Shown piece by piece: positions 24,933 through 44,113 of a stretch of 45,780 nucleotides of DNA. The DNA comes from Acidobacteriota bacterium (lineage in GTDB: Bacteria; Acidobacteriota; Terriglobia; Bryobacterales; Bryobacteraceae): contig JANXXI010000339.1 in NCBI GenBank assembly GCA_025350695.1, forward strand, positions 1 to 45,780. The letters run 5' to 3'. The notes under the pieces were generated by a model. That model saw nothing but the letters and a program-made list of their open reading frames with translations, searched no databases and was not told where the DNA came from. The translations under genes and the position numbers were made by a program. The stretch's first letter is position 1, and every line of letters begins with the position of its first letter.

Positions 24933-26501
24933 TTAGAAGCGGAAGCGCAGGGTCAGGGACGCATGACGCGCCTGAACCTGAGCTCCCGTAATTTGTCCAA
25001 ACAAGTTGTTGGTGTTTGCCCCCCCAGCAGTGCAGAATCCATTTACGGCCGCACAATTAATTGACAAACCAGTATTTGGATTGCTTGGGTTGAAGTGGTT
25101 GAACAGATTGTAAGCTTCAGCCTTGAAGCTCAAAATCTTTGGCCGTTCGTTGCTCGACAGATTGATGTCCTTCTGGATTCCGAGGTCAATGTTCTGAACG
25201 CCCGGTCCATAGGTCAATGTTGGTGGAGTGTTGCCTATGCCGAAGGATGTAGCCGATGGCAGTGCGAAACTCGCGGGATTGAAGGGGTACCATAGCCGTG
25301 GATCGGCGTTTGATCCGACCGAAGCAGGAGTCGCTCCTTCGGCCAAGAAAAGGGGACCACTCATCTGGCAGCGGAACGGGAAACCGCCAGTTGGCGTGCC
25401 GGTCCAGTAGCCGGGAGGCGCTCCGTTGGCGCTGCAGCCGATAGTCATCGCCGAGCCGTAAAAGAAAGTTCCAACGCCCGAAAGATGCCAGCCATTGAAG
25501 ATCTGACGGCTTACAACGTTATCCCAATACTTGGCCGCGCTCGGGATATCGTAACCCCAGTTGACGTTGACCGCATGCGGGCGATTACCCGTAACGTTCT
25601 TCAACAGATTATCGTTCACCCATTGGTTACGGTTGTAGGTGATGGTCTTCGACCAAGTATAGTTTCCACCAAATTGAAAGTGCCGAGAGAACCGGCGGTT
25701 GAACGACATCTGCAAGGCGTTGTAGTTGGATGCGCCGTCCTGCGTGTAGGTCTGGATCGCTCCCCAACCGCGATAGCCGCCTGCCAGGGAGCGGATCAGA
25801 TTCGTGGAATAAAATCCGCCTGTGCCGCCGTTAGCGCTGGTTGGATCAAGGTACTTCTTCACCGCGCCATCGGTTGGGTTCCAAATGGTATAGGGCTTCA
25901 CAGCGTTGAAGTCGATACGGCCCTGGTTGAATTGGTTGTGCGCCACATTACCAACGTAGGTAACATCCATTACCCAACCTTTGCCCAGATCCTGTTGAAT
26001 ACCGAAGGTCCAGTCGTAGGTTGAAGGAGGCTTAACGTCAAGCGATCCGCCAGTGGTGGCCTGCGGCGTATAGACTACCGACGAACCAATCAGACTGTTG
26101 ATGTTGGTGTTAAGAATGATAGGCGCGACGTAATTGGGAGGAGCAGCGATTGGGCCGGTTCCCGCACCAGTGGCCCCAATAGTGTCTACGCCGAATGCAC
26201 GGCCGTAGAAGATACCGAAGCCAGTACGAAGAGCCGTTTTACCGTTGCCAAAAACGTCATAGGCCAAACCAATACGCGGTCCAATCTTGACGTTGGGGTC
26301 ATTGAATAGTTGTTCCTTCTTCTGCAAGATGCCGGAAAAGGGCAGGCCATTTGCCGGGAACGAACCTGGATCGAACGTGCCTTGCTGCGCGTAGGGGAAC
26401 ACTTTGCCGTTGGCTGGATTGATTGAAGCTTTATTAGCCGTCGGGCAGCTTGCGGTGGCCGATACCGCAACAGTGCAATGAGGATACAGCAGTTGCCCTG
26501 C
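24933..26501 (-). pseudogene. TonB-dependent receptor (Oar-like), beta-barrel fragment lacking its N-terminus
   Basis: The frame encodes about 520 residues of an outer-membrane beta-barrel: the segment FGNGKTALRTGFGIFYGRAF, repeated aromatic strands (SFNRRFSRHFQFGGNYTWSK), IFNGWHLSGVGTFF, and the terminal ASLTLRFRF ending in Phe. Acidobacterial receptors of this kind normally run to ~1000 residues or more, with a carboxypeptidase-regulatory-like domain and a plug. Here everything before the mid-barrel is missing, and the frame opens from a TAA at 26502-26504. Immediately upstream the DNA becomes a dipeptidase fragment, so the gene was cut by a rearrangement. A GTG at 26402 could serve as a start, but the product would not be a functional receptor. 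Confidence 0.75.
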
Positions 26502-26935
26502 TTACGGCCTGGGCGACATGATCGCGCAATAAATGCGGTGCATGTGTGAATCTCGCCAATCGTTTGATCGGCCGCATCGGGTCTGAACCTTCTTCCCCTG
26601 AGTTCTGAAAGACGCAAGTAACCCCCGCTACACGCGCCGCCGCAAGGTGCTCTTCCCGTTCCACTGCGACAGTGGCGCATCGGGTCATGACGTGTTCCTC
26701 GGCCAAGTCCTGATACTCAACGTCGCACGCGGCATGAGGCCGTAGGATTCAAACACCAATGAATCGGCGTGAAGCGTCAGCCCTCGCTCCAACTGCGCCT
26801 GAGTCGGCTTGAGCACGCTGAGCGCAGCCTCGCGCGAATTCTGAATGGTTTGGTTCGGGCTGGCCAGTTGTCGAGCGGCAGCCGGCAACGCAAGGAGAGC
26901 GCCTAAAGGAAAGTGAGAAAGCTACGGCGATGCAT
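26495..26935 (-). pseudogene. Membrane dipeptidase (M19 family), N-terminal half, inverted and frameshifted
   Basis: Read leftward from ATG 26935, the sequence gives a Tat/Sec-like start (MHRRSFLTFL), a frameshift, then LGALLALPAAARQLASP and LTLHADSLVFESYGLMPRA. After a further shift and small deletion it reads DLAEEHVMTRC and GVTCVFQNSGEEGSDPMRPI through RDHVAQAV. This is the N-terminal half of a renal-dipeptidase-type metallopeptidase. It ends near 26495 against the TonB receptor fragment. The matching C-terminal half lies on the opposite strand from about 27054. Confidence 0.7.
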
Positions 26936-26951
26936 TTCAGGTTAGGATATC

Positions 26952-26994
26952 GCGGAATTCTACTCTGTTAGCTGTGGAGTAGAATCCGCTTTTT
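26952..26994 (+). terminator. Intrinsic-terminator-like hairpin inside the inverted segment
   Basis: GCGGAATTCTACTC pairs with GAGTAGAATCCGC (13 pairs, one bulged base) around an 11-nt loop and is followed by TTTTT on the plus strand. It lies between the two dipeptidase halves, upstream of the N-terminal half, so its orientation may have been changed by the inversion. Confidence 0.5.
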
Positions 26995-27053
26995 GTGAAC
27001 GTTAACCCTTCTCAACCAAAACACCAATATTGCACACAATATCGCTAATACAG

Positions 27054-27857
27054 CCGGCGGATGTAGGGGCGGCCAACTGCGCCGGGCGTCATGCGATCTA
27101 CATGACGAGCGGCGTCCCCGTTACCGGTGAATGGGTCTCAGTTGAAAACGAACTGCGTTATGTCCCCATCTTCTTCCAACTTGGCGTGCGCATAATGCAC
27201 GTGACTTACAACCGGCGCAACATGCTGGGCGACGGATGCGGGAACCGGCCAATGCGGGGCTCTCTGACTTTGGGCGAGCCGCCATGGCGGAGATGAATCG
27301 TCTGGGAGTGATTGTCGACGTGGCGCACTCCGGCGGGCGCACCAGCTTGGAGGCTGCGAAGGCATCGAAGAAGCCGATGGTGGCGAGCCACTCCTGCTGC
27401 ACTGCGCTGAATAATCATGTGCGGTTCGAAACCGGATGCAGTGATCAAGGCGATTGTTGACACTGGCGGGTTGATCGGCATTTGTTGCATTCCGGAATTC
27501 CTGGCGAGAACCGGAGATATAGCGGCCATGCTGGATCACATCGATTATGTGGTGAAGAAATTCGGTGCGGAGCATGTGGCGATTGGGACGGATGTGGCCT
27601 ACACCTCAAGTAACGCTGCCGCAGTGAACCGGAAGATCCCACGCAGAGCAAGGCAGCGCGTGCGATGGGAGGCGCTATGGCCGCAGGGCGCTCTGGGCGG
27701 ATCTACCCAAGCGCAAGTGGAAAGCATGGCCTGGACGAATTGGCCGCTGTTTACAGTTGGCCTTGTTCAGCGGGGCTATTCGGAAACCGACATCCGAAAG
27801 ATCCTGGGGAAGAATGTACTTCGCGTTTGCCGGGCGAATTTTGACGGCTTTGCATAA
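27054..27857 (+). pseudogene. Membrane dipeptidase (M19 family), C-terminal half, frameshifted
   Basis: The homology picks up at PADVGAANCAGRHAIYMTSG and runs through FFQLGVRIMHVTYNRRNMLG. It changes frame near 27238 to EPANAGLSDFGRAAMAEMN and IVDVAHSGGRTSLEAAKAS. It changes again near 27425 to KPDAVIKAIVDTGGLIGICC, HVAIGTDVAYTSS and the end WTNWPLFTVGLVQRGYSE. These are the barrel and metal-site segments expected after the N-terminal half found on the other strand. With two frameshifts and a separated N-terminus, the gene is dead. Confidence 0.75.
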
Positions 27858-27915
27858 GCGCATCTAACAACCGTAAGCGGTGTGCAAAGGCTGCGATCGC
27901 CTGAGAGAGGCCACT

Positions 27916-28065
27916 ATAAAACAGATCATCCTGCTTGCTTTCCGCCTTCATGGCCGCCGCAAGGTGTCAGCGTCACCTGGATTGGCTAAGCTTGTTATGT
28001 CATTCAAACCGATAACAACGGGCCTGCTGTAATCTGACCCGCCGGCGGCCAACATCGGCTATGCG
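27916..28065 (+). pseudogene. Broken 5' end of the MBL-fold gene
   Basis: Just after AGAGAGG, a frame starting with ATA (not ATG) reads KQIILLAF, like a signal peptide. A different frame then gives GVSVTWIG, a TAA at 27987-27989 where homologues of this kind have Gln or His, and ACYVIQTDNNGPAVI. A further shift gives SDPPAANIGYALPTINADAV, which runs into the intact downstream frame. The missing start, the stop and two shifts show that the native N-terminus is no longer translated as one chain. Confidence 0.6.
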
Positions 28066-29283
28066 TTGCCCACAATCAATGCCGATGCGGTGACTATCAC
28101 GCATAACCATGGCGATCACAACAATTCAGCCGGAGTGAAAGGGAATTTTACGCTGGTGGATGGGCGGCCTGCGACTCTGCGGACGACTGTGACGGGGACC
28201 GGTACAACCTTCACGATCATCCCTGGCTTTCATGACAATACGAACGGCTCGGCGCGCGGACAGAACTCCATCATCCGCTGGACACAGGGCGGGCTCAACT
28301 TCGCGCACTTCGGCGACTATGGGCAGGACGCGTTGACTCCGGCGCAGATCGCCGACCTTGCGGATCTTGATTTGATTTTTGTGCCGGGCGGCGGCGGACC
28401 GACAATTTCCGGACAACAAGCCGCACAGTTGATTCAACAGCTGAAACCGAAAGCTGCTGTGTTGATGCACTTTCGAACCGCGCTTGGCGGGCCAACGGCT
28501 GTGGACTCGTTCCCAACGATGGCCATTCCTTTTCCTGCGCTGAAATTTAAGCCGTCGACCGTAACGCTGACGAAGGCTACGTTACCTTCCGCAACAGAAG
28601 TGTGGGTACAGGAAGTTCTTTCTGACGGAGGCGTGGTGAACGCCGCATCGTTTACCGCTGGGGCGCCGGTGGCTCCGGGGTCGCTGGTCTCCATTTTCGG
28701 GCAATTTTCGACGCCAATCCCGACGCAATCCGCGGCCAGCTTACCTTTGCAGACAACATTAGGGAATGTGCAAGTATTGGTGGCGGACAAGCCCATCCCG
28801 TTGTGGTTCGTTTCGTCCAATCAGATCAATGCGCAACTTCCAGCATCGATCGCCAGTAGCCAGCAGGTAGTGGAGGTGCGGTTGAATAACCAACGCATCG
28901 CGCGTACTTCTGTTACCGTGTTACCGAATGCGCCGGGCCTGTTTGTGGCTGTGGATCAGGCGGGGAAGGTGCTTTCGCGGATGAATCCCGTGCGGCGCGG
29001 GGATGTGATCACAATCTATGGAACGGGGCAGGGGGCGGTTACCGAAGTGGTGGCGGATGGCGCCGTTAGTCCGGCGAGCCCGCTCGCGCGGTCGCGCGAA
29101 AATCCTGGTGTGTATGTGAACGGACGGCTTGCACAGGTGCTGTTCAGTGGTCTCACGCCTGGGCTGCCCGGACTTTGGCAGATTAATGCGGTTGTCCCGA
29201 GTGACGCCACCGTTGGGTTGGATTCCACTCTGGTTGTGCTACAGGGGCAGGTTAGTAATGAGCTGAGCATCGCCGTGCAGTAA
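28066..29283 (+). CDS. MBL-fold metallohydrolase domain with Solibacter-type (TIGR03437) C-terminal domain, N-terminally truncated
   Basis: This open frame of 405 residues runs from TTG 28066. The metal motif THNHGDHNN is near residue 12, followed by an UlaG-like lactonase/metallo-beta-lactamase fold with HFGDYGQ and VLMHFRTALGG. From about residue 200 comes the TIGR03437 domain: GGVVNAASFTAGAPVAPGSL, VSIFGQ, PLWFVSSNQINAQLP, GTGQGAVTEV and GLPGLWQINAVVP. That domain is typical of Solibacter-like Acidobacteriota. The first ~50 native residues lie upstream in broken frames, so any product from here would lack its signal and first strands. Treat as a probable pseudogene with a long intact 3' part. 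Confidence 0.7.
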   Translation: MPTINADAVTITHNHGDHNNSAGVKGNFTLVDGRPATLRTTVTGTGTTFTIIPGFHDNTNGSARGQNSIIRWTQGGLNFAHFGDYGQDALTPAQIADLADLDLIFVPGGGGPTISGQQAAQLIQQLKPKAAVLMHFRTALGGPTAVDSFPTMAIPFPALKFKPSTVTLTKATLPSATEVWVQEVLSDGGVVNAASFTAGAPVAPGSLVSIFGQFSTPIPTQSAASLPLQTTLGNVQVLVADKPIPLWFVSSNQINAQLPASIASSQQVVEVRLNNQRIARTSVTVLPNAPGLFVAVDQAGKVLSRMNPVRRGDVITIYGTGQGAVTEVVADGAVSPASPLARSRENPGVYVNGRLAQVLFSGLTPGLPGLWQINAVVPSDATVGLDSTLVVLQGQVSNELSIAVQ

Positions 29284-29698
29284 GCGCCTTAGCGCAGCCA
29301 TTGGCTCAGTGTTAGGAAGTTGACTTTCTGGTCGGCTTGCTTTCGAGCAAACGGCGAATAATAGTAAGTCAAACGTCGCCTTAACTTTCAGCGCCTGCGG
29401 GTGAAGCGAAAGAAAACGACTCTCTGCGCGTTTCACAGGGCTTTAAGCGCGTGTCCGTACCAACGTTTGCAGCTTTGAGAAATACGAAATGTTACTTGTC
29501 CAGAAGATGGCCTGCCGCATTACGGTCATGGCCGATACTTCCAAAATCATTGCCTTAAGGATCTTTTTTATGGCCGTTTACTTCGAAGTCGATGTCTTCC
29601 GGCTTGGCGAAACGAATACATCCCTTGCCGACCTTTGAGCCCGGAAAGGACAAGCATCAATAACAATTGAATGAGGGTTTGGAGAGCATGGCGATAGA
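29284..29698. other. Intergenic region with a gene remnant
   Basis: No intact gene. It contains the DUF1801-like fragment on the minus strand (29554-29637) and otherwise unassigned sequence. Confidence 0.5.
29554..29637 (-). pseudogene. DUF1801-like protein, C-terminal remnant
   Basis: On the minus strand a short frame reads KVGKGCIRFAKPEDIDFEV before running to a stop in NGHKKDP. The GKGCIRF...DIDF pattern matches the end of DUF1801/YdhG-like proteins as I remember them. No start or N-terminal part is present in frame, so only a stump remains. Confidence 0.4.
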
Positions 29699-41650: not shown

Positions 41651-42403
41651 TTGACGGCGTTAATCCTTTCCGGCGGTGGCATGTTCGCGGCTTGGCAGGC
41701 TGGGGCCTGGCAGGAACTGTCGAAGAGAATGGCTAAACCCGATTGGGTCATTGGCGCATCGGCCGGTTCGTTGAATGCCTGGGCCATTGCCGGTGAGTTG
41801 CCGCCTGAAGTGTTGATTGACCGCTGGCTGAACCTATCGTCTTACAATAATTTGCGCTGGCGCTTTCCCGCTGGACCAACTGGTAGCGTGCTTGACCCCA
41901 CGCATATTTGGGAAGACATCGACGAAATGTATTCCCTTTGCATGCCACGCACGAATATCGGCGTGACGCTGACGCGCCTGCCCTCGTTCAAAGTGGAGAT
42001 GGTAACCAACGAGAAGATCACCCCGCAAGTTCTGCGGGCGTCTTGCGCGGCGCCTGTGTTTTTCCCGCCAGTGAATTGGAACGGCCACTGGTATTGGGAC
42101 GGAGCGCTGATGGACGGGTTGCCGCACTCCTTTGGGCGGAGGGTTGGAGCGACGCGGTTGGTCTGCTTCAACGTCTGGGTGGGACTGCCGTGGTGGTGGA
42201 CCGTGACGGGCAATATGATGTACCGGTTCCGAAGGTGGCGGGAAGGTATGAAGGCGGATGCAACCGATACAGTCGAATGGATCTATCTTGCCCCTCCAGC
42301 AATGCCGGGATCGTTTCGAGATGCCGCGGTGTGGACGAGGTCCAACGTGGAGCGGTGGATTGATGAGGGGCGCGAGGCTGGGCGGAAGGCAGAGCTTGAT
42401 TGA
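41651..42403 (+). CDS. Patatin-like phospholipase
   Basis: This 250-residue protein uses TTG 41651, because the patatin hallmark begins at once: ALILSGGGMFAAWQAGAW (oxyanion loop). The nucleophile is GASAG (Ser37) and the catalytic Asp is Asp150 in YWDGALMDGLP. It has no signal, so it acts in the cytoplasm or at the inner face of the membrane on acyl lipids. A Trp-rich stretch near 180-200 (LPWWWTVTG) may help membrane contact. No Shine-Dalgarno is visible. Confidence 0.88.
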   Translation: MTALILSGGGMFAAWQAGAWQELSKRMAKPDWVIGASAGSLNAWAIAGELPPEVLIDRWLNLSSYNNLRWRFPAGPTGSVLDPTHIWEDIDEMYSLCMPRTNIGVTLTRLPSFKVEMVTNEKITPQVLRASCAAPVFFPPVNWNGHWYWDGALMDGLPHSFGRRVGATRLVCFNVWVGLPWWWTVTGNMMYRFRRWREGMKADATDTVEWIYLAPPAMPGSFRDAAVWTRSNVERWIDEGREAGRKAELD

Positions 42404-42475
42404 AACTAATTGACTACCGTCGCGATGAGTTGGTCGACTGAAAGCGCCGTGAGCGCAAGTTGGTTACAATCGCGG

Positions 42476-43405
42476 TCAGGAAAACTGGTCAGTTGGATAG
42501 CCGCGTTCCACCCAAGCGTCGTAACCGCCTTCAAGAGGGCGAACCTTGGTGATGCCTTTATTGATGAGGAGTAGCGCCGCACGGGCGCTGGATCTTTCGT
42601 CCGGTCAAGAACAGTAGAGAATTATTTCCTTGTCACGGGGAATCTCTAAGTGACGCTCTTCCAGATCGGCAAAGCTCATCATGACGGCTCCGCGAATTAC
42701 CGAAGTCCGCTTGATCTCCCAAGGGTCGCGCATGTCGATGAGGAAAAAGTCATGCCGATCGCGGCGCTCGTTGAGATCGTCAACCGTCATCCGGCTAACG
42801 TGGAGTAAGTGCAGGAAACGGCGGCGCTGGTAGTATTTGTATCCCAGATAACCAAGGAGCGCGGCAGTAACGGTCACCCCCAGGCTTGATCCCAATTGAA
42901 CGGCTGCGGTCGCGACGATTTCCAATTGATGATGGAACAGCGCCCCAGCCGCCATCAGGGAACCGGCCCAGAGCAACGAGCCGGCGCCATCGGCCAGAAG
43001 AAATTTTCCGGTAGACATGCCTGACATCCCGGCCAAAGGCGGGGCGGCGGTGGACAAGCCAGGCAGAAACTTCGCGCCCAGCAGCGTGCTCCAGCCGTAG
43101 CGTTGAAAACCGCGCTCCGTGGATTTGACGCAGGAGTCAGGTTCAAGGGAAATCTTGCACAGCAACTTTAGCACGCTGCGGCCTTTGGCCCGGCCGATCA
43201 GGAACCAGGTGAAGTCCGCCGCAAGGCAAGCGGCCACCGAGCCGATGATTGCCACCGGCCAGGAGTAGGTTCCATTACCGATCAGCGCACCCATGGCCAG
43301 CAGCATGGGCATGGCCGGAATCGGCAGGCCCGCTTGCTCGGCGAACACCCAGACGACGAGCACGGCGTAACCGTACTCTTTTAGGAAATGTGGGATCCCG
43401 GTCAT
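42476..43405 (-). CDS. DedA-family membrane protein fused to a rhodanese domain, with in-frame UGA (candidate selenoprotein)
   Basis: Up to 42605 the frame gives 266 residues. The N-terminal DedA part (GYAVLVVWVFAEQAGLPIPA, GAKFLPGLSTAAPPLAGMSG) has about five membrane helices. From about 205 a rhodanese domain follows (LIDMRDPWEIK, EIILYCS). The next codon, 267, is TGA. The same frame continues for 42 residues (PDERSSARAALLLINKGITK, then a stretch ending GGYDAWVERGYP) to TGA 42476-42478, completing the domain without further damage. Homologues as I remember them read Y-C-S/A-C-P-N-E here, so the TGA stands for Cys. It is either Sec inserted beside Cys265 or a nonsense mutation. A SECIS-like hairpin follows. 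It is the second gene of an operon after pirin (9-nt gap). Confidence 0.72.
42573..42589 (-). promoter_or_regulatory. Candidate bacterial SECIS hairpin downstream of UGA codon
   Basis: In the mRNA, AGCGCC, loop CGUGC, GGCGCU form a perfect 6-bp stem starting 15 nt after the UGA. The apical loop starts 21 nt after it, and its second base is G. This fits the spacing and small G-containing loop expected of bacterial SECIS elements. The same bases encode a Ser-Ala-Arg-Ala-Ala-Leu stretch, so codon choice could create the stem by chance. Confidence 0.45.
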
Positions 43406-43414
43406 CCTAAGATC

Positions 43415-44113
43415 TTACGCGAGATCGAACAGGATTAGATCTGCTTGTTCGATACCGGTGACCTCAAGGTTACTTTCTTCAGAGATGGCCGCGCCGTCGC
43501 CGGCATGCAAATGGACGCTGTTCAGTGTGACGGAACCGGTAGCGACCTGGAGCCATGCATGGCGACCGGATGCCAGTGGAATCGGCAACTTGACGCCAGG
43601 GGCGACGTCGGCAACCGAAACAAAAGCATCCTGTTCGATGGGTGGCGTATCTTCCCGGCCATCGGGCGAGGTAATCAGTTGCCACCTGTTCTGGCGGCCC
43701 TCGGCGGCAAATTCCCGATCCTCAAAGCGTGGCGGTACGCCATTTTCAGCAGGCTGAATCCAGATCTGGTAGAAGTGCACGGGCTCGGTCTTTGAGTGGT
43801 TGTATTCGCTATGTTGGATGCCCGACCCAGCAGACATACGCTGCACGGCGCCGGGACGCAGAACTGCCTTGGCGCCCGTGGAATCCTGGTGCTCCAGCGC
43901 ACCTGTGATCACCCAGGTGATGATCTCCATGTTGCTGTGGCCGTGGCGGCCGAAGCCCATGCCGGGCGAAACCCGATCATCGTTGATGACGCGGAGCGCG
44001 CGGAAACCCATGTGTTTCGGGTCGTGGTACTGATTGAAGGAAAACGTGTGGCGGCTATCCAGCCAGCCGATGTTAGTTTCGCCGCGTTCGGCGGATGGAC
44101 GGATGGTGATCAT
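43415..44113 (-). CDS. Pirin-family cupin protein
   Basis: This is a 232-residue bicupin of the YhaK/pirin type. The metal ligands are in FGRHGHSNMEI (two His) and GIQHSEYNHS (His and Glu), and RALRVINDDRV lies before them. Characterised relatives oxidise quercetin or sense redox state; the role here is unknown. It is the first gene of an operon with the DedA-rhodanese gene 9 nt downstream, which would fit a redox or sulfur-stress theme. Confidence 0.92.
   Translation of the reverse strand: MITIRPSAERGETNIGWLDSRHTFSFNQYHDPKHMGFRALRVINDDRVSPGMGFGRHGHSNMEIITWVITGALEHQDSTGAKAVLRPGAVQRMSAGSGIQHSEYNHSKTEPVHFYQIWIQPAENGVPPRFEDREFAAEGRQNRWQLITSPDGREDTPPIEQDAFVSVADVAPGVKLPIPLASGRHAWLQVATGSVTLNSVHLHAGDGAAISEESNLEVTGIEQADLILFDLA

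Follow-up and report, generated by a model that had tools for sequence, protein, structure and literature searches.

A predicted selenocysteine-containing DedA-rhodanese fusion protein of Acidobacteriota, with an in-frame UGA and a SECIS-like hairpin

The DNA analyzed here, a stretch of 45,780 nucleotides from an Acidobacteriota genome (contig JANXXI010000339.1; the whole stretch is referred to as the window), carries on its minus strand a gene that, as judged from sequence comparison, almost certainly encodes a 309-residue membrane selenoprotein, in which an N-terminal DedA (VTT) domain is fused to a C-terminal rhodanese domain and codon 267, a UGA, would be read as selenocysteine (Sec) by means of SelB and a downstream hairpin. 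The window is contig C148 of the genome G000, an assembly of 391 contigs and 7.19 Mb with a completeness of 100 and a contamination of 4.8. The gene and its main parts are located as follows.

42476–43405, minus strand: predicted DedA-rhodanese selenoprotein gene, 309 codons plus stop, with codon 267 TGA read as Sec
42605–42607, minus strand: in-frame TGA, codon 267, predicted to be read as Sec
42941–43321, minus strand: VTT/DedA membrane domain (PF09335), residues 29–155, helical in the predicted model
42506–42787, minus strand: rhodanese domain (PF00581), residues 207–300, interrupted by the UGA

Translation from the ATG at 43405 reaches codon 267 immediately after ...DKEIILYCS, and under translation table 11 the gene ends there, 43 codons early. 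The same frame continues for 42 more codons (268–309), PDERSSARAALLL...EGGYDAWVERGYPTDQFS, and closes at a second TGA (42478–42476), codon 267 being the single in-frame UGA of the gene apart from its stop. An earlier note on this DNA had placed the TGA at 42607–42605 as codon 267, right after LYCS, and had the frame running on for 42 residues to a second TGA to complete a rhodanese domain; the translation and, for the domain, Pfam bear out both statements. In the read-through protein, VTT_dom (PF09335) is matched at residues 29–155 with 55.6 bits (gathering score 33.9), and Rhodanese (PF00581) at residues 207–300 with 55.8 bits (gathering score 22.2); the latter match spans profile positions 1–101 of 102, so that a complete rhodanese domain requires read-through of the TGA.

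Alternatively, the TGA could be a true stop, as the table 11 open reading frame (ORF), which ends at it, would have it; the product would then be a DedA protein of 266 residues whose rhodanese is truncated, and the tail would be a remnant in decay. The tail, however, is under protein-level constraint. In the nearest genome, G149 (71% identity), the TGA is shared and the frame closes at the same residue with TAG; over the 42 codons 3' of the TGA, the two genomes are separated by 17 synonymous and 9 non-synonymous changes, with 2, 7, and 24 differences at codon positions 1, 2, and 3, respectively. Because the relative combines the same TGA with another stop and mostly third-position changes, the TGA is neither a product of chance nor a lone assembly error; the assembly error considered in the earlier note is also countered by the recurrence of the TGA in other assemblies. 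Moreover, relatives with the same TGA keep their downstream frames conserved rather than decayed, and the tail columns A277, G284, G293, G294, and W298 are conserved at 99–100% in the TGA loci.

Homologues were sought in 257 genomes of the same order (E ≤ 1e-20), and the protein is present in 144 of them; among the 150 order-level matches listed, 86 carry the TGA, and the loci fetched did not include 19 matches, each marked 'none'. An alignment of 133 loci was built from 30 loci of the order search, 100 fetched loci, and three full-length matches in named genomes (one Pyrinomonadaceae and two Acidobacteria metagenome-assembled genomes). In the 133 aligned loci, the equivalent of codon 267 is TGA in 88, TGC or TGT in 37, and Ser or Gly in 8 divergent copies with 34–40% identity to the window protein. 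A further 29 loci came from a 396-genome sample of the phylum, and 40 were added last (39 from the same sample and G037 from the order); these 40 are absent from the statistics on codon constraint, stem pairs, folding energy, residue conservation, the tree, and the Fisher test at ≥90% completeness, all calculated on the earlier sets. Overall, the 202 loci comprise 118 with TGA, 76 with Cys, and 8 with Ser or Gly, never TAA or TAG, a distribution that speaks against a true stop, and codon 267 is the only TGA of the aligned region in all 118 TGA loci. The Cys homologues are conserved on both flanks of this position, as looked for in a selenoprotein family, and they agree with the earlier note's statement that the residue is the second Cys of a C-S/A-C motif, with C-[ST]-C being seen. 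On an unrooted tree of 160 of 162 loci (two shorter than 250 residues were dropped), the TGA and Cys labels need at least 14 changes, 7 of them forced by well-supported branches; the family has therefore switched repeatedly between Sec and Cys, in a direction that an unrooted count does not tell.

The earlier note regarded the C that follows the UGA as a context of poor termination; the base is indeed C, as the next codon is Pro (CCG), but it says nothing by itself, because it begins a Pro codon that is conserved in the Cys forms too (C in 86 of 88 TGA loci and 35 of 37 Cys loci). At the base immediately 5' of the UGA (window position 42608), 77 of 88 TGA loci have a T, compared with 12 of 37 Cys loci, and no codon upstream of the UGA is under stronger synonymous constraint than codon 266 (2.52 bits); the preference for T is weaker in the phylum loci inspected. 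One TGA-type homologue, L136 (G157:C156), has an extra in-frame TAG and is perhaps a decaying copy or an error, and its genome also holds a Cys copy (L172).

The machinery for Sec insertion, as expected for a selenoprotein gene, is found in the same genome. By profile matches, selB lies on C212 (370.7 bits, cut-off 242), selA on C264 (493 bits, cut-off 268), selD at G000:C313:36302–37225 (366 bits), and tRNA-Sec on C355 (66.6 bits, gathering score 47), the last also identified by ARAGORN as tRNA-SeC with the anticodon TCA; these are the four genes that the earlier note had named as a check on its reading. A second match to the tRNA-Sec model above the cut-off is a tRNA-Ser. Within the selD gene itself, the Sec site is a single in-frame TGA (AAG-U-ASK), behind which lies the hairpin GUCCAAA-GGU-UUUGGAC with a GGU loop; hence the genome very probably makes another selenoprotein, of a known type. 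All four genes lie on contigs other than that of the window, which matters little, since the pattern repeats in other genomes. Among 85 typed TGA genomes of the order, selA and selB are both found in 67 and at least one of them in 82, while the remaining three (62, 83, and 85% complete) have a tRNA-Sec with a TCA anticodon; G037, typed later, has the TGA form together with selB. When genomes at least 90% complete are typed by locus, selA or selB occurs in 60 TGA and 18 non-TGA genomes and both are absent from 0 and 4, respectively (Fisher p 0.004). In the phylum sample, selB is found in 29 of 30 TGA genomes vs 3 of 39 Cys genomes (p 6e-15), a count with the codon checked in all, using the best copy per genome only and leaving out G476 and G387, whose matches stop short of codon 267; the sole TGA genome of this sample with no selB match, G311, has selA and tRNA-Sec. 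Taking the order set and the phylum sample together, at least one Sec gene is present in 115 of 115 TGA genomes. By genus (listed by hand), all 25 TGA genera have selB, as do 2 of 9 Cys genera.

These co-occurrence statistics are weakened by the fact that related genomes are not independent. Tree-corrected pairs of machinery against codon include few informative ones: of 9 independent pairs, 1.6 are concordant and 0 discordant, and when the test is turned the other way round the figures are 1.4 and 0.1 of 7; in both, G085, G100, G141, and G311 were counted as being without the machinery. On the constraint of the tail, the alternation of TGA with Cys, and the tracking of the TGA form by the Sec machinery, a true stop is rejected as very improbable.

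The predicted read-through is further associated with a hairpin inside the coding sequence.

42573–42589, minus strand: SECIS-like hairpin, bases 18–34 (first base of the UGA numbered 0), with the stem AGCGCC / GGCGCU and the loop CGUGC

In bacteria, the selenocysteine insertion sequence (SECIS) is a hairpin that follows the UGA directly and carries a G(U) in its apical loop. In the window, codons 6–11 after the TGA read AGC GCC CGT GCG GCG CTA. Among the loci of the order and the named genomes, all six pairs of the stem are formed in 78 of the 88 with TGA and in 5 of the 37 with Cys. When the 88 TGA loci were recoded synonymously in 1000 rounds, six pairs arose in 4.6 loci on average and in 14 at most, and among loci with the same peptide, SAR[AV]AL, the six pairs are present in 66 of 66 TGA loci vs 4 of 8 Cys loci. 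Every one of the 88 TGA loci has G at loop position 25, and at position 26 there is T in 71 of them and otherwise G (15) or C (2), in line with the G(U) loop of the bacterial element; eight loci have a GGUC loop, extended to GGUCU in six of them, which we take to resemble the SECIS loop of E. coli fdhF. Codon choice at codons 6–10 after the UGA exceeds the gene's own usage by 1.2–2.3 bits per codon (88 TGA loci), compared with a median of 0.24 bits in 252 upstream columns (251 of them ≤0.72) and at most 0.88 bits in the other downstream columns; in the 37 Cys loci, columns 7–10 drop to 0.14–0.56 bits, with column 6, a Ser written AGC or AGT, being constrained in both forms. Similarly, the folding energy relative to synonymous recoding has a mean z of −2.25 in 108 TGA loci and −0.13 in 46 Cys loci, and total stem pairing over 104 distinct TGA sequences amounts to 595 of 624 cells vs 121–292 in slid controls. 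A stem C-G is replaced by T-A in L051 and L233, and the stem of L202 and L205 can be rebuilt in another register.

Several observations count against the hairpin. Taken alone, the hairpin of the window is modest: dinucleotide shuffling gives z −0.84, with 40 of 200 shuffled sequences folding as well, and synonymous recoding gives z −1.47, with 77 of 1000 doing so. In the stem, double changes amount to 3 cells, not above the slid controls (0 to 11); they are few because coding fixes most columns, and the case for the hairpin therefore rests on total pairing and synonymous-site constraint. Fewer than five of the six fixed pairs are formed in 7 of 104 distinct TGA sequences, the nine later phylum TGA loci have six pairs in 0, five in 6, and four in 3, and five or six pairs occur in 9 of 30 later Cys loci. 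With this looser stem in the later phylum loci, the fixed-pair count separates the TGA and Cys forms well only within the order, although, by our reading, some TGA loci with a loose fixed stem may re-pair through a bulge or a shift. The stem is shifted or, on that reading, bulged relative to the consensus in L202, L205, L226, L234, L236, L237, L238, L254, and L255, loci that would be useful for defining the tolerance of SelB. An Rfam scan of 42400–42700 gave five chance matches, all far below the gathering scores, and a scan for promoters and terminators gave the same counts as shuffled sequences; a terminator-like site near the hairpin lies on the opposite strand, is the same inverted repeat, and was rejected.

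Another route to the full-length protein would be general UGA readthrough, or UGA taken as Trp or Cys by suppression or a changed code, and the frame would indeed be open under any code that gives UGA a sense. Against this, no internal stop occurs in the selA or selB matches listed for the order, and the window gene itself ends at a second TGA; tRNA-Sec(UCA) and selA/selB are present; the hairpin goes with the TGA forms and is lost in the Cys forms of the order; and the alternative residue at position 267 is nearly always Cys and never Trp over the 202 loci. The machinery, the hairpin, and the Cys alternation lead us to reject general readthrough, the chance of which appears minimal.

With codon 267 read as Sec, the active-site loop of the rhodanese domain would contain a Cys and a Sec separated by one residue (CxU).

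42611–42613, minus strand: codon of Cys265, placed by strand register at the putative catalytic Cys position of the rhodanese, C-S-U with Sec267

Cys265 is kept in 108 of 108 TGA loci, 46 of 46 Cys loci, and all 40 later loci. A model predicted from 11 sequences (mean predicted local distance difference test score, pLDDT, 88; predicted template modeling score, pTM, 0.64) is helical up to residue 200 and continues with the rhodanese part, in which residues 265–270 form a loop after the strand 260–264. The rhodanese part resembles 3tp9_A (Z 18.4, root-mean-square deviation 1.3, 108 residues) and 3gk5 (Z 17.5), and so agrees in fold as well as in score with Rhodanese (PF00581); the structure search returned matches for this half only, with no DedA structure among them. 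In an alignment anchored on the strand DKEIILYC, the active-site loop of ordinary rhodaneses is shorter by two residues, which would put Cys265 at the catalytic position and make Sec267 an added chalcogen; this register alignment used loci that had been selected by the peptide DKEIILYC itself, and one PDB chain was aligned by phmmer two residues out of the Cys265 register, which argues the other way. The alignment and the predicted model nevertheless support an active-site loop of C265-S-U267 with a two-residue insertion, with Cys265 as the presumed catalytic-position Cys.

The DedA part contributes a second pair of cysteines.

43130–43159, minus strand: loop between two long helices, residues 83–92, bounded by C83 and C92

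Both C83 and C92 are present in 106 of 106 TGA loci that cover them and in 45 of 46 Cys loci, and each of the 10 TGA and 30 Cys loci of the later set has both. Counted singly, C83, C92, C265, and U267 occur in 106, 107, 108, and 108 of 108 TGA loci, with truncated loci accounting for the shortfall, and in 10 of 10 later ones. The loop between the two cysteines is rich in Lys/Arg and the linker before the rhodanese is R-rich, so both are probably cytosolic; the C-terminal rhodanese domain is probably cytosolic as well. While the membrane domain scores above the gathering score of DedA/VTT (PF09335), it lacks one of the two conserved basic residues of an UptA-type flippase. YghB Arg130 and Arg136 are two arginines thought to bind phosphate, according to the available part of PMC10127716. 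At the position aligned to the former (Lys112), 106 of 107 TGA loci have Lys and one has Arg; position 118, aligned to the latter and Ser in the window protein, is Ser, Asn, Gly, Ala, or Thr and never Arg in the 107. As Arg136 has no Arg counterpart here, the DedA activity is probably not ordinary undecaprenyl-phosphate flipping.

A mechanism may be proposed on these grounds. SelB and Sec-tRNA(UCA), directed by the hairpin within the coding sequence, would read UGA 267 as Sec, a step that the sequence data strongly support. Cys265 would then take up sulfane sulfur or become oxidized, and the selenolate of Sec267, two residues off, would resolve it through a selenenylsulfide. The C265/U267 pair could exchange with the C83/C92 thiols of the DedA loop, and the redox state of these chalcogens might drive or gate the action of the DedA domain. 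Such a four-residue relay of C83/C92 and C265/Sec267, with Cys265 as the acceptor, is put forward tentatively as the likeliest mechanism, with a probability well below even. To the same doubtful degree, the protein may represent a widespread selenium-dependent membrane redox machine, in which the relay controls or powers a DedA protein of transporter fold, so that the movement of lipids or ions across the bacterial inner membrane is coupled to the chemistry of sulfane sulfur or selenium.

The relay has to be weighed against a CxU rhodanese that acts alone, as a sulfurtransferase or a persulfide/peroxide reductase that is merely anchored in the membrane, with C83/C92 being structural; this is a quite plausible reading, if still somewhat short of probable. 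It is favored by CxU rhodaneses matched without a DedA part, namely L054, L055, L056, and L057 (from Chloroflexi, Chloroflexota, Anaerolineae, and a 'bacterium'), where the U of LYCxU is TGA and the match lies mainly over the rhodanese part, and by the persistence of C83/C92 in 5 of the 8 copies with Ser or Gly at 267; the latter speaks against a relay, as does one frame-shifted proteobacterial record that lacks C83/C92 and keeps CxC (CVC). On the other hand, the constancy of C83/C92 in both sets of TGA loci, their presence together with CxC in 5 of 6 proteobacterial relatives, and their absence from E. coli YghB are not what an isolated CxU rhodanese would lead one to expect; C92 is lost, moreover, in 3 of the 8 copies that have no chalcogen at 267 and in L177, the 1 of 46 Cys loci concerned, a close relative of one of them.

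A role in selenium handling, with the DedA domain importing selenite and the Sec-rhodanese passing selenium to SelD, appears unlikely. The CH34 megaplasmid does carry a gene for a CxC DedA-rhodanese, although its sameness with the gene that this proposal has in view is not established. Cys forms, however, persist in 36 of 39 phylum Cys genomes with no selB match, and no recognized selenium gene appears in the neighbor clusters, of which only the pirin cluster described below is annotated.

With respect to known families, the earlier note mentioned rhodanese-like selenoprotein candidates, and a CxU rhodanese is in fact already a named family. NF041203 (rhodanese_LYCAU), which is rhodanese form 3 (CxU) in Table 1 of PMC13188914 as far as that source is available, shares the LYC-x-U loop (LYCSU here) with Sec two residues after the catalytic-position Cys, and is the best match among selenoprotein models (residues 202–306, E 3.5e-23, 81.7 bits; 77.1 bits in the genome search). 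The window protein stays below the curated cut-off of 115 bits and is no member by the NCBI rule, and the model, of 126 positions, has no DedA domain. In named genomes, seven CxU segments (three from fusions, four matched by their rhodanese part) likewise stay below the cut-off of NF041203, at 80–98 bits, having been cut to the match, which lowers the scores. TsoB (NF045694), by name a Sec-rhodanese in a fusion-like arrangement with a DsbD-like part, matches the rhodanese part weakly (E 5.5e-6), but it has two Sec in UxxxxU and a DsbD-like rather than a DedA part; the window protein, with one Sec in CxU, reaches 24.7 bits against a cut-off of 805 and is not a TsoB. The UptA/DedA transporters (NF052604; E. 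coli YghB) belong to the same VTT/DedA family and are matched with 50.7 bits, below the cut-off of 250; Glu39 of YghB aligns with Glu23 here.

The novelty claimed for a DedA fusion in the earlier note holds in part. DedA-rhodanese fusions of COG0586 are in print (Todor et al. 2023, PMC10127716), with the same domain order as the window protein, and PA1209 is named as one of them in the accessible part of PMC12893004; the six proteobacterial relatives have CxC rather than CxU. In the available text of PMC10127716, Sec is not mentioned for these fusions, 'selen' occurring once, in a reference title, and the link of the rhodanese to the lipid carrier is called unclear. A 2026 review, in its accessible portion, counts 119 selenoprotein families or subfamilies, including rhodanese forms 1–5 (PMC13188914), and DedA, VTT, and SNARE are absent from that text; within the portions available, DedA and SNARE do not occur in PMC9312934 and PMC2398784, nor do DedA, VTT, and rhodanese in PMC12013277. 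A Sec-bearing DedA-rhodanese fusion was not found in the searches made of the open-licence literature, and a report elsewhere is possible. Since both the CxU rhodanese family and DedA-rhodanese fusions are known, the novelty lies in a Sec-bearing fusion with a SECIS, in its distribution, and in the additional pair of cysteines. With the Sec form, a phylum to which the accessible part of a 2006 table assigns 3 families and 4 selenoproteins (PMC1794560) gains a large selenoprotein group. Moreover, DedA proteins are widespread in bacteria, and a Sec in the rhodanese together with two extra DedA cysteines makes a role of the rhodanese for DedA testable.

A second NF041203-like copy was sought in the genome, and only a weak rhodanese on C330 was found (28.8 bits), without a stop. 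The gene directly upstream in the window is listed below.

43415–44113, minus strand: Pirin/quercetinase-like gene directly upstream, a possible operon partner (Pfam Pirin, 117.4 bits)

A pirin-like frame near the homologue is also the largest neighbor cluster, with 16 loci, 15 of them TGA-type; as several of the other clusters are overlapping or opposite-strand frames, the genomic context does not identify a substrate. Elsewhere in the window, the region 26300–29400, whose genes the earlier note had called decayed, contains ORFs of at least 100 residues in mixed or overlapping frames and, at 28066–29283, an ORF of 405 residues.
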